From positions 1-64,000 of the forward strand of contig NZ_JAAOEN010000001.1 in assembly GCF_011320225.1 (NCBI RefSeq): a stretch of DNA of 64,000 nucleotides. The letters run 5' to 3'. Every line of letters begins with the position of its first letter. Within the stretch, counting starts at the first letter, position 1. The stretch comes from Phytoactinopolyspora limicola (lineage in GTDB: Bacteria > Actinomycetota > Actinomycetes > Jiangellales > Jiangellaceae). The notes below the pieces were generated by a model, which saw only the letters and a program-made list of their open reading frames with translations, was not told where the DNA came from and ran no database searches. Below are positions 124 through 30,394 of this stretch, in pieces. The translations under genes were made by a program, and so were the position numbers.

Positions 124-148
124 CACAGCTACCGCACACGTTTGCGAC

Positions 149-273
149 GCATCTGATCGCTGAGGCGTCCGCGTCGTGGGATGCGATCAGATGCATGCCG
201 CCGCTCATCGCCCTGCGATGTCACCGACGTTTGTGCGCCTGATCGTCGCCATAGAAACGATCAGGCGCACAAA
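149..273. repeat. Two palindromes of the GATCAG-TGCAC family
   Basis: GCATCTGATCGC (149-160) pairs with GCGATCAGATGC (183-194). A second stem has 17-nt perfect arms (230-246 and 257-273; core TGCGCCTGATC/GATCAGGCGCA) around a 10-nt loop. A half-site GGAGATCAGGTGCACA follows at about 275-290. The same words build the large inverted repeat at 29,068-29,594, so this is a dispersed intergenic repeat family. It lies downstream of clpB and could act as a terminator, but no T-tract is present. Confidence 0.75.
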
Positions 274-344
274 CGGAGATCAGGTGCACAACAGGTCAGT
301 CGTGCCAGCCGCCGTTGTCGTCACTGTTGCGCTGGGGTGAGTGG

Positions 345-2927
345 TCAGGCGCGACGCACGCTGAGCTGATCAGCGCCCTCGTCAAGGTCGACGGTGACGG
401 TGTCGCCGTCGCGGATATCGCCGGCCAGTATGGCGCGGGCTAGTTGATCTCCGATGGCGGTCTGCACCAGCCGCCGCAATGGCCGCGCACCATACACGGG
501 GTCGTAGCCGGTCAGCGCCAGCCACTCTTTGGCGCCGTCGCTGACGTCGAGCACCAGACGACGGTCGGCCAGCCGCTCCGCGAGGCGTTCCACCTGAAGG
601 TCGACGATACGTGAGAGTTCGTCCGTACCCAGCGGCTGGAACATGACGATGTCGTCCAGGCGGTTCAGGAACTCAGGTTTGAACGAACTCCGCACCACCT
701 CCATCACGGCCTTCTCCTTCGCCGGCTCATCCAGAGCCGGGTCGGCGAGGAACATCGAGCCGAGGTTGGAGGTGAGGATCAGAATGGTGTTGCGGAAGTC
801 GACCGTGCGGCCCTGACCGTCGGTCAACCGTCCGTCGTCGAACACCTGCAGCAGGATGTCGAAGACCTCCGGGTGGGCTTTCTCGACCTCGTCGAGCAGC
901 ACCACCGAGTACGGGCGGCGGCGCACCGACTCGGTCAGCTGGCCACCTTCCTCGTAGCCGACGTAGCCGGGTGGTGCCCCCACGAGCCGGGCTACGCTGT
1001 GTTTTTCGGAGTATTCGCTCATGTCGATGCGGACCATGGCCCGCTCGTCGTCGAACAGGAAGTCGGCCAACGCCTTGGCTAGTTCGGTCTTGCCGACGCC
1101 CGTCGGCCCCAGGAACAGGAAAGTACCGGTAGGGCGGTCGGGGTCGGACACGCCCGCGCGCGCCCGGCGGACGGCGTCGGATACGGCGGCGACCGGTTTG
1201 TGCTGACCGACCACCCGCGCGCCGAGTTCGTCCTCCATCCGCAGCAGCTTGCCGGTCTCTCCCTCCAGCAGCCGGCCGGCGGGAATACCCGTCCAGGCGG
1301 CGACGACGTCGGCGACGTCGTCCGGGCCGACCTCATCTTTGACCATCGTCTCAGCCGTAGGGCTCTCGACTACCTCGGACGCGGCCAGCTCTTTCTCGAG
1401 TTCCGGGATGCGGCCATACAGCAGTTCGCTGGCGCCGGCGAGGTCGCCGTCGCGCTGGGCCCGCTCGGCCTGGCCCCGTAGCTCGTCGATCTGCTCTTTT
1501 AGCGCACCGACCCGGTTGAGGCTGGTCTTCTCCTGCTCCCACCGGGCCTCAAGCCCACGCAGCTCTTCCTCGCGATCGGCCAGTTCGGCGCGGAGCACGG
1601 CCAGACGTTCCCGCGACGCTTCGTCCTGCTCCTTCTCGAGCGCCAGCTCTTCCATCTTGAGCCGGTCGACCTGCCGGCGCAGAGTATCGATCTCGACGGG
1701 CGAGGAGTCGATCTCCATACGCAGCCGCGACGCGGCTTCGTCGACGAGGTCGATGGCCTTGTCCGGCAGTTGGCGGCCGGTGATGTAGCGGTGTGACAAC
1801 GATGCCGCCGCTACCAGCGCCGCGTCGGAGATCTGAACCTTGTGGTGCGCCTCGTAGCGCTCCTTGAGCCCACGGAGGATGGCGATGCTGTCCTCGACAC
1901 TGGGCTCACCAACGTAGACCTGCTGGAATCGGCGTTCTAGGGCTGGGTCCTTCTCGATCCGCTCACGGTATTCGTCGAGTGTGGTGGCACCCACCATCCG
2001 CAGCTCGCCCCGGGCCAGCATCGGCTTGAGCATGTTGCCGGCATCCATCGCGGAATCTCCGCTGGCTCCGGCACCAACCACGGTGTGCAACTCGTCGATG
2101 AACGTGACGACCTGTCCGTCGCTGGCTTTGATCTCGTCGAGCACGGCCTTGAGCCGCTCCTCGAACTCGCCACGGTACTTGGCACCGGCGAGCATCGCGC
2201 CGATATCAAGGGCGACGAGGCGTTTGCCTCGCAACGACTCAGGGACGTCGCCGGCGACGATCCGCTGCGCCAGGCCCTCGACGACCGCGGTTTTGCCGAC
2301 CCCCGGCTCGCCGATGAGAACGGGGTTGTTCTTGGTACGCCGCGACAGCACCTGCACAACCCGTCGGATCTCCGAATCACGCCCGATGACTGGATCGATC
2401 TTGCTCTCGCGGGCGCGTTCAGTGAGGTCGACGCCGTACTTGTTGAGTGCGTCGTAGGTGCCTTCGGGGTCCGGACTGGTGACGCGCCCTGAGCCGCGGA
2501 CGTCGGTGAAAGCGGCGCGGATCTTCTCGGCGGTGACGCCGTGCTGAGCGAGAAGGTCTTTGACCGGGGACTCCACATGCGCGAGCCCCACCAGCAGATG
2601 CTCCGTGGAGATGTACTGGTCGTCGAGCTCACGCGCGACCTCACCCGCATGGGATAGGACCGAGTACGTGGGACGCGCGAGGTTGGGGGCGGCCACGGTG
2701 GAGCCGGCCGCCGATGGCAGTGCCGCGAAGGCCGCGTCGACATCGCGGCGGACAGCTGCGACGTCGGCGCCAGCGGCCTCCAGAAGCGGACTGGTGAGCC
2801 CATCTGCCTGGATGAGCAGCGACCGCAACAGGTGGATCGGCTCTACCGCAGGATTACCCGAGGTAGCGGCGGTCCGCACCGCTACCGACAGTGCCTCCTG
2901 CGCTTTGGTGGTCAGCTGGTCGTTCAT
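345..2927 (-). CDS. clpB: ATP-dependent disaggregase ClpB
   Basis: Hsp100 AAA+ chaperone that extracts polypeptides from aggregates together with DnaK/DnaJ/GrpE in the cytosol. About 860 residues, the normal family length. In order: N-terminal Clp repeats (~1-145), first AAA+ domain with Walker [14 protein letters not shown], the long coiled-coil middle domain that distinguishes ClpB from ClpA/ClpC (~400-530), second AAA+ domain with Walker [15 protein letters not shown] and Walker [12 protein letters not shown], and the D2-small domain. The ATG at 2927 is preferred over 2948 because GGAG sits 6 nt before it and [10 protein letters not shown] matches the usual ClpB start. A HAIR operator lies 60-80 bp upstream, and hspR is in this window, so heat-shock repression by HspR is expected. 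Confidence 0.97.
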
Positions 2928-2987
2928 CAGTCTCCAGTGTCTCCTCAATGCTTGCTCGGGGTTGCCGCTTCATACAACGACGCCAAA

Positions 2988-29027: not shown

Positions 29028-29067
29028 TCGCATGTGGCGACTGTGTGTCCGCTCCCTCCCACCCCGT

Positions 29068-29594
29068 GTGTGCACCTGATCTCCGTTTTGTCACCTGATC
29101 TTTTTCTGTGGGGCGATCAGGTGTGCCAACGGCGGACGACGGCGCGGTGTGGTGCATCTGATCGCGTCCCGTGATGTGGACGCGTGGCGATCAGATGCAC
29201 GATCGGCGTTTTTGGGGCGGGTTGTGCATCTGATCGGCAGCAGGTGTCCGGTCAGCGGATCGGTGGCGGGTCTGGCGAGTCGGGTTCGGCGAGTGGGTCG
29301 GTCATTGGAGGTCCGGTGGGCGGGCCCAGTCACCCCGGGGGTCCGGCCGGGGATGTTGCGCTCGTGTTGTTGGTGGTGGGGAGACTCGTCGTTGTTCGCA
29401 TCCCGCGCGGTCGTCATCGGGCGTGACGATCAGATGCATCAACTGACCGGCAGGCCGCGGTGACGCATCTGATCGCCGCGCGTCCGCATGGTGGAGGCGA
29501 TCAGATGCACCACACCGCGCCGTCGTCCGCCGTTGGCACACCTGATCGCCCCACAGAAAAAGATCAGGTGACAAAACGGAGATCAGGTGCACAC
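29068..29594. repeat. Large inverted-repeat element with 98-bp perfect arms
   Basis: Left arm 29068-29165 is the exact reverse complement of right arm 29497-29594, separated by 331 bp. Each arm contains nested copies of GATCAGGTG and GATCAGATGCAC. The space between has further copies that pair locally: 29152-29165 with 29187-29200 (14-nt perfect arms) and 29465-29476 with 29497-29508. It sits between two convergent genes. No transposase or credible coding frame is present. Candidates are a MITE-like or REP/BIME-type element; related palindromes occur at 149-290. Confidence 0.85.
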
Positions 29595-29635
29595 GGGGGG
29601 TTAGGCTCGCGTGTGTGCTGCCAGCTCGCCGGTGA

Positions 29636-30394
29636 TCAGGCGTCGGTGATCTCTTCCGCCAGGGAGAGTCCCACGTCGGCACCCCGGGCATAAGCCTCGG
29701 CACAGTGCCGCACCCATGCCCCGACGCCGTCCGGCGTGCCCGACCGGTAGGCCTCAAGCAGCGGCAGGTAGGCCAACACCAACGCCTGGTGTCCAGCTTC
29801 GGGGACGCTGACCGCCTTCGTATCGACCCCTCTCGCCACCAGGATCACCCGTTCCGCTGCCCGCGCGACGATCCCATCAGCCACGCCGAACACGCCGACG
29901 GCCACCAACTCGGCGTGGACGATCGCCGCGACCACTACCCCGGGGGCGTCCGTCCGTGCGGTGGATAGGCGCAGGATCTGATCGAGCCGGGCGGTGTCGG
30001 CATCCGGGCGTGGCCGGCCGAGCCGATCGGCGTCGGCGACCAGGTCGCGCGCGGCCAACACGTGCAGCCGCGCCAGCGCCTGATGTGGCGAGTGTTCCCA
30101 GAGCCGGGCCAACTCGGGGACATCCGCTACAGCTCGCAGCGCACCTTGCACGCGGGCGTCGCTGACATCGTCGACGTCGGCACCATCGAGTCCGGCCGAG
30201 GCACGAGCGCCACGAACCGCCGATTCCGCTGCCAGGCGGGCTGCCTGGCGACGCATCACCCGGTGCCGGAGCAACGCGTCGATCGCGTCACGAGCATGGG
30301 CGGCAGCCGTCCCGACTCCGTCGAGGGCAGCGACGCGTGCGAGGGGATCGTCCACGGCCACCGAGCTTATGGGGTCACATCCGGCGCGACGCAC
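29636..30394 (-). CDS. Fic-like actinobacterial protein, core motif degenerate
   Basis: About 240-252 residues, almost entirely helical. Sequences of this type sit near acs in many actinobacteria and are often labelled oxidoreductase without support. The segment VHAELVAVGVFGVADGIVAR resembles the Fic core HPFxxGNGR in spacing, but the His-Pro-Phe and GNGR residues are replaced, so AMP transfer is doubtful. The start is ambiguous (30394, or GTG 30358). It precedes nothing in its own operon and follows DUF1707/PadR. Confidence 0.55.
   Translation of the reverse strand: MRRAGCDPISSVAVDDPLARVAALDGVGTAAAHARDAIDALLRHRVMRRQAARLAAESAVRGARASAGLDGADVDDVSDARVQGALRAVADVPELARLWEHSPHQALARLHVLAARDLVADADRLGRPRPDADTARLDQILRLSTARTDAPGVVVAAIVHAELVAVGVFGVADGIVARAAERVILVARGVDTKAVSVPEAGHQALVLAYLPLLEAYRSGTPDGVGAWVRHCAEAYARGADVGLSLAEEITDA

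Follow-up and report, generated by a model that had tools for sequence, protein, structure and literature searches.

Palindromic elements across the genome of Phytoactinopolyspora limicola and a nuclease-like gene as their candidate mobiliser

In the literature that we found, all REP-like palindromes whose partner is known go with a single type of enzyme, the RAYT. The RAYT gene is described as flanked by palindromes, the word of these palindromes as co-varying with the partner and their abundance as tied to it (PMC2817692), and in REPINs inverted REP doublets that form a hairpin are described as the unit (PMC3116915). For the CGTC-tagged palindrome families a dedicated transposase is not reported in the accessible part of PMC3733652, and the terms actino, Streptomyces, Frankia and Mycobacterium are absent from the main text of that article. 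The palindromic elements that we describe here, in Phytoactinopolyspora limicola and some of its relatives, resemble the REP/BIME and RAYT pairs (REPtrons) as portrayed in three articles (PMC2817692, PMC1525189, PMC3733652): they are high-copy alternating palindromes at gene ends, their partner is flanked by inverted copies, the word follows the partner, the abundance is tied to the partner and insertion sequences land within them. Nevertheless, the partner is AbiEi/DUF559-like and not a HUH Y1 transposase (PF01797 is absent from the family genomes searched), no GTAG tag was noticed by eye, and the elements are longer, with arms of ~130-190 nt that hold 5-6 sites. Unlike in REPINs, the doublets are stacked into arms and the arms are paired into inverted repeats of ~0.13-1.5 kb, which can enclose genes. 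The CGTC-tagged palindromes are likewise without a known transposase in the consulted part of their description, and their words differ from those found here (PMC3733652). In titles and first lines of abstracts, within openly accessible journal literature, we found no description of palindromes tied to AbiEi/DUF559 genes, and no paper of that literature combined the terms 'AbiEi' and 'DUF559'. We hypothesize, with a probability of about 0.6, that a selfish gene family has these palindromes as its cognate DNA, in a REP-RAYT-like arrangement run by an unrelated nuclease-like protein; if so, gene-plus-palindrome selfishness would have evolved at least twice.

The window analysed, a stretch of 64,000 nucleotides that starts with the first position of contig C1, carries a palindromic-element arm at its left edge (147-290, minus strand), in which terminal site, hairpin A and hairpin B follow each other in the minus-strand reading (one row of alignment A1). 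A preliminary description had reported two perfect palindromes and a half-site at 149-290, and these are present as claimed: five GATCAG sites make up two hairpins and a terminal half-site. Hairpin B (149-194) has arms of 12 nt (149-160/183-194, 100% complementary, 22 nt apart), hairpin A (228-275) has arms of 19 nt (228-246/257-275, 100% complementary, 10 nt apart), and the terminal site, GATCAGGTGCAC (278-289, plus strand), is exact and stands at a distance of 19 nt from the next one. On the minus strand, positions 259-284 form the tandem end motif CCTGATCNNCGNNNNNNNNCCTGATC. Within the arm, GATCAGRTGCAC is exact at 278-289 only, with one mismatch at 185, 233 and 259 and two at 147. Sites with at most one mismatch number 13 in the whole window, against 0.80 expected and with none of 100 shuffles reaching 13; four lie in 185-289, seven in 29,070-29,592 and two stand alone (4575 and 56120). 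No Rfam family matched within the window. On the right of the arm, a ClpB gene (345-2948, minus strand; Pfam Clp_N and ClpB_D2-small) has its stop codon ~55 nt away.

The second group of sites belongs to a complete two-armed element (29,061-29,601), whose outer arms (29,061-29,169/29,493-29,601) are 97% complementary. Its left arm (29,069-29,239, plus strand) holds sites at 29,070 (-), 29,152 (-), 29,189 (+) and 29,224 (-), its right arm (29,424-29,601, minus strand) holds sites at 29,428, 29,499 and 29,581 (all +), and both contain further GATCAG/CTGATC cores. The kinship of the words at the window's edge with this large inverted repeat, which had been proposed beforehand, is borne out: from position 290 inward, the order terminal site, hairpin A, hairpin B is the order found in the arms of 29,061-29,601, and the arms align. 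Seven other elements match most of the length of this element at 72-94%. An ORF of 252 aa with no Pfam match (29,636-30,394, minus strand) has its stop ~35 nt from the element's right end.

The second half of the 147-290 element lies outside the contig. The arm is adjoined, at 1-127, by an insertion-sequence-like repeat end with a 23-nt direct repeat (76-98/101-123), and it is likely that the assembly was interrupted at an insertion sequence residing in the element, which would account for the position of the arm at the contig's edge. The same 127-129 nt end also closes contigs C1 (right, L179) and C16 (right, L196) within elements; it contains two direct copies of TGTCTCGGGACATCGCTGACGG and is placed in the inter-hairpin linker of three different elements, always beside TGTGG. 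Contigs C2, C7 and C36 start, within elements or next to them, with a second, related end that is identical over 127 nt. The palindromic elements look like landing sites for these insertion sequences.

The suggestion that these words form a genome-wide family stands, as the copies far exceed chance. Exact GATCAGRTGCAC occurs 376 times in the 6.59-Mb genome (179+197), against two occurrences of the pattern read backwards, and with up to one mismatch the counts are 803 and 25, respectively. The end motif TGCACCTGATCTCCGTTTTG has 154 matches with at most two mismatches (control 0), which among the 100 matches listed are mostly arranged as a plus followed by a minus match ~0.13-1.5 kb apart; therefore, the genome holds about 80 elements. 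These are mostly inverted arm pairs, full arms consist of 5-6 alternating sites, and the centres differ in length and content. One of them (L143:762-829, in C1:372000-374200) contains another perfect palindrome, ACCTGCTGGCTCAGAATTGCGGAT, whose arms measure 24 nt and which bears no relation to the GATCAG words, and beside an element remnant at the start of C7 (L181, ~220-450) there are tandem-like repeats of CAGTAAGCGTCCTTGTGGTCGCTCTGGCGA and GTGGTCAAGACCGTGCCGCT.

The ~80 elements adjoin the 3' ends of genes. Among 24 sampled elements with usable flanks, 16 lie between convergent genes, eight between co-directional and none between divergent ones, as judged from the best-scoring ORF of a crude caller run with no threshold (with a threshold the counts are 5, 4 and 0, with 15 uncalled), which answers on the stop-codon side the question, raised in the preliminary description, of where the words lie relative to gene ends. 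At L188 (the end of a ROK gene) and at L169 (in G014, the end of a LuxR-type gene with a GerE domain) the neighbour's TGA stop codon falls within the first CTGATC, so that the element appears to supply the neighbouring gene's last codons. This placement behind stop codons is what would be expected if the elements were ordinary gene-end furniture, that is, bidirectional terminators or mRNA 3'-end hairpins maintained by the host and multiplied by recombination, with the AbiEi/DUF559 gene as one of many hosts. We consider this explanation unlikely in view of the distribution of the elements among genomes and of the flanks of distant partner genes, both described below.

The hairpins differ in how well their pairing is preserved. 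Covariation at the outer pairs 1, 4 and 5 of hairpin B exceeds that of all 1000 shuffles (76 units, several genomes), whereas hairpin A shows little covariation, confined to pair 4, for which 4 of 1000 shuffles reach the observed value (65 units), and falls below its shuffles when the units are left unoriented; the test ignores the relatedness of the copies. As hairpin A hardly covaries, we do not argue for a reading of the hairpins at the level of RNA only. Alignment A1 was drawn from 67 arms of 41 sources, a subset of the genome's elements; seven arms that had no second GATCAG at the set distance were removed first, and then 17 of the other 60 as near-duplicates. Likeness between the arms of a single element averages 0.797, against 0.703 for arms taken from different elements (25 elements), and reaches 0.95-0.98 in L185, L188, L157, L145 and L191. 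Arms may be exchanged between elements, since the own partner is the best match for just 14 of the 50 arms.

The distribution of the family is patchy. Exact GATCAGRTGCAC is present 0-19 times in each of 98 relatives, against 376 times here, and the tandem end motif CCTGATCNNCGNNNNNNNNCCTGATC, searched for in 22 family genomes (controls 0), occurs 179 times in P. limicola (G000), 29 times in G014, 24 in G011, 21 in G004 and 0-1 times in the other 18. The four array-rich genomes span three genera, and three of the four other species of the own genus (G001-G003) have 0-1 end motifs, which speaks against gene-end furniture kept by the host; a distribution this uneven is easier to reconcile with a selfish element than with a structure of the host. 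It also bears on the proposal, made in the preliminary description, that the words may be chromosomal sites for a nucleoid or regulatory protein. The strongly conserved core words, their alternating orientation and their regular spacing would agree with such sites; however, the copy number is patchy and species-specific, the words are organised in inverted-repeat elements of very different lengths, some of them with cargo genes, and binding sites would have no reason to track one nuclease-like gene. The proposal is not supported in that form, and we regard it as quite improbable, the best candidate partner being the palindrome-flanked nuclease-like gene described below.

Given an architecture closely like that of BIMEs and REPINs as described in PMC2817692 and PMC3116915, one also has to weigh the possibility that the elements form a classical REP/REPIN or MITE family which owes its movement to a known transposase (RAYT/Y1 or DDE) encoded elsewhere in the genome. 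We searched for one transposase family, Y1_Tnp (PF01797): neither this genome nor any of the 18 other family genomes covered matched it; of 31 genomes one matched (G030, outside the family), and the model was detected in 5 of 14 control genomes. On this PF01797 result we reject a RAYT/IS200-type partner. In addition, no transposase was recognised among the listed ORFs between the arms of L188, L189 and L191, some of which were scanned. That a known transposase is the driving enzyme seems to us quite improbable.

What the elements do track is a gene. The element at C7:70127-71596 (1.47 kb) encloses, at C7:70450-71379, an open ORF of 310 aa, the candidate partner gene, of which orthologues with 55-64% identity are present in seven family genomes (G004, G010, G018, G011, G015, G013 and G014). 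GATCAG/CTGATC arrays lie beside it in 8 of 8 cases, the own copy included, and in none of 21 other loci from the same search. Inverted palindromes flank the gene on both sides in four of the eight, namely G000, G004, G011 and G014, the very genomes in which arrays are spread genome-wide, and are found on the 3' side only in G010, G018, G015 and G013. Correspondingly, arrays are spread genome-wide in 4 of 8 genomes with the partner gene and in 0 of 14 genomes lacking it (Fisher p 0.0096). The four genomes with arrays on the 3' side only show no amplification (0-1 end motifs): they have palindromes adjoining the gene and at most one end motif elsewhere, an arrangement not expected of gene-end furniture. 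The reading frame is open in G000, G004 (where a slightly longer match contains one TGA), G010, G011 and G018; in the other three genomes, G014, G013 and G015, it appears to be disrupted or frame-shifted. Gene integrity and abundance do not coincide throughout, as G014 has its 29 end motifs though its gene is broken, and G010 and G018 have an open gene, yet no genome-wide arrays. Searches of plasmids and virus contigs found no partner gene. The palindromes have thereby led to something larger than first supposed, a repeat family for which a gene of a new type is the candidate mobiliser. The association of gene and palindromes is strong, and we hold it with high confidence; that the gene mobilises the palindromes is what we infer from it, and our confidence in the mechanism is moderate.

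The neighbours of the partner gene in P. limicola are a ROK gene and pcrA, the latter named by its Pfam domains UvrD_C and PcrA_UvrD_tudor; other neighbour genes are presumably sdhB and PadR. Where P. limicola has the 1.47-kb element between pcrA and ROK, G001, whose pcrA and ROK genes are 90% and 74% identical to those here, has at most 140 bp with neither array nor partner gene. As six further genomes (G010, G011, G013, G014, G015 and G018) also have the partner gene no more than 2 kb from pcrA, gain and loss at this junction are indistinguishable. In G004 the arms at the pcrA locus enclose a glyoxalase gene (Glyoxalase_7), and the partner gene is on another contig within arms of its own; in P. 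limicola a CsbD gene (PF05532) lies within another element. Inspection by eye revealed no target duplications, and the flanks are often C-rich outside both inverted ends.

Residues 40-183 of the 310-aa protein match a PADLOC AbiEi model (8.9e-19), and the protein itself has no Pfam match. AbiEi proteins are DNA-binding repressors. At E<=0.1, 9 of 16 aligned homologues match DUF559 and 8 of 16 match AbiEi_4; the best DUF559 match among the 16 is 1.8e-4, and the own protein has none. The proteins of L257, L244 and L224 exceed the curated DUF559 cut-off (best 4.5e-8). We take DUF559 to be Vsr-like and PD-(D/E)XK nuclease-like. The acidic residues D239, E250 and D265, as well as R268, are invariant in 16 of 16 homologues; EVDG or EIDG in the orthologue clade is replaced by EVHG or EIHG in the nearest relatives, including the G009 member, which has palindromes of its own. 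A profile search against the PDB gave a weak match to 3hrl, 'Endonuclease-like protein' (E 0.012), and two relatives had weak matches to MTES_1575 REase. The nuclease-like nature of the protein is thus a lead that comes from the DUF559 relatives and the weak 3hrl match. The likeness to Vsr-like or EDxHD homing endonucleases, which runs through DUF559, a relative of Vsr-like nucleases, and the weak MTES_1575 REase matches, is likewise only a lead, and the present system differs from such enzymes in that there is no intron or intein and the words lie both beside the gene and dispersed.

The AbiEi matches raise the alternative of a solitary defence or toxin-antitoxin gene, with the palindromes as operators or as scars of cassette gain and loss. 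The N-terminal region resembles the AbiE type IV toxin-antitoxin system in matching AbiEi models of PADLOC, and AbiEi proteins act as DNA-binding repressors. The protein departs from that system in its nuclease-like C-terminus and its palindromic flanks, and at the own locus, with ROK and pcrA as neighbours, neither a second gene within the element nor an AbiEii or toxin neighbour was recognised. Moreover, operators would not be expected at ~80 gene-less places, or on the 3' side only as in G010, G018, G013 and G015. We hold this alternative to be quite improbable.

Returning to the selfish gene family as the preferred reading, we propose the following scheme for the gene, which has an AbiEi-like N-terminal and a DUF559-related C-terminal region and sits amid arrays of the palindromic word that belongs to it. 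The N-terminal region would bind the cognate palindromes, the C-terminal region would nick or cut their hairpin form, and this nicking or cutting may lead to the arms being copied into new sites. Gene-less copies, that is, most of the ~80 elements, including 147-290 and 29,061-29,601, would be non-autonomous passengers, surviving where they presumably do least harm, namely downstream of stop codons and mainly at junctions of convergent genes. The arms can also take in other genes, such as the glyoxalase gene in G004 and the CsbD gene here, and insertion sequences appear to land in the elements.

If this is correct, a widespread family of so far unexplained actinomycete genes gains a role, many 'AbiEi' defence calls need review, and the clade-specific words allow a simple test of word-protein specificity. 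A wider reading seems to us evenly balanced between true and false: actinomycetes would possess a second, independently evolved class of palindrome-mobilising genes, in which the abundant AbiEi-DUF559 proteins are nicking enzymes of REP-like selfish elements, not defence or antitoxin proteins, each clade bears and disperses a hairpin word of its own, and the ~80 elements of P. limicola represent one burst.

More distant members of the family were collected as 30 loci from a family search and 30 from a class-wide search, in which 67 of 393 genomes matched. Distant AbiEi/DUF559 members have palindromes of different sequence in their flanks, often on both sides (CTCATGATC in G009, CTCAAGATC in G101, AGTCAGACG in G126, GGACCTGTC in G243, and TGATCATCAAGGATC and others in further distant members), and a clade of genus g3 has near-identical palindromes of 45-60 nt (e.g., CCATGATCATCAAGGATC...). 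The palindrome word thus changes with the partner clade. The prediction drawn from these words, that they recur genome-wide, held in three further genomes. A CTCAWGATC hairpin occurs 14 times in G009 (one beside the gene) and 22 times in G101 (three beside the gene), with a control of 0; elsewhere there was a single copy in G011 and one in G133, and 18 other genomes had none. The AGTCAGACG hairpin is present at seven places in G126, two of them beside the gene, and at two in G243; 18 other genomes lack it, and the control was again 0.

Comparison of the flanks points in the same direction. For all 41 + 13 homologue loci, the 13 being new loci from a different query, left and right flanks of 400 nt, cut at the ends of the protein match and not at verified gene ends, were compared by blastn (E<=1e-5). 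They match each other in 32 of 54 homologue loci, against 0 of 38 clpB genes and 0 of 20 random genes (one from each of 20 genomes of the homologue set), which gives a Fisher p of 7e-14 when kinship among the homologues is ignored; the loci are not independent, several coming from one clade. That distant members are flanked on both sides by unrelated words, with matching flanks in 0 of 58 controls, is a further argument against gene-end furniture. The flank word statistic skipped 2 of 41 and 2 of 15 loci because of short flanks or N. By the shared-word criterion alone, 25 of 39 and 9 of 13 homologue loci are positive, against 1 of 38 clpB and 3 of 20 random genes, and by the two-criterion test 16 of 39 and 3 of 13, against 0 of 38 and 0 of 20. 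Among the 22 of 54 homologue loci with no left/right blastn match, nine (L225, L231-L233, L235, L244, L256, L291 and L316) have palindromes that were noticed by eye, came out in the shuffle test or are confined to one flank, and there is no palindrome to show for the remaining 13; in L301 and L317 the matching flanks are long repeats and not clear palindromes. As a separate observation, a very long palindrome, TTTTTTCGATGATCATGAACACTTACCTGGCCA..., lies directly behind the pcrA stop codon at L268, in G005, a genome that has no GATCAG arrays, and this palindrome contains GATGATCATG, a word found near other DUF559-type genes.
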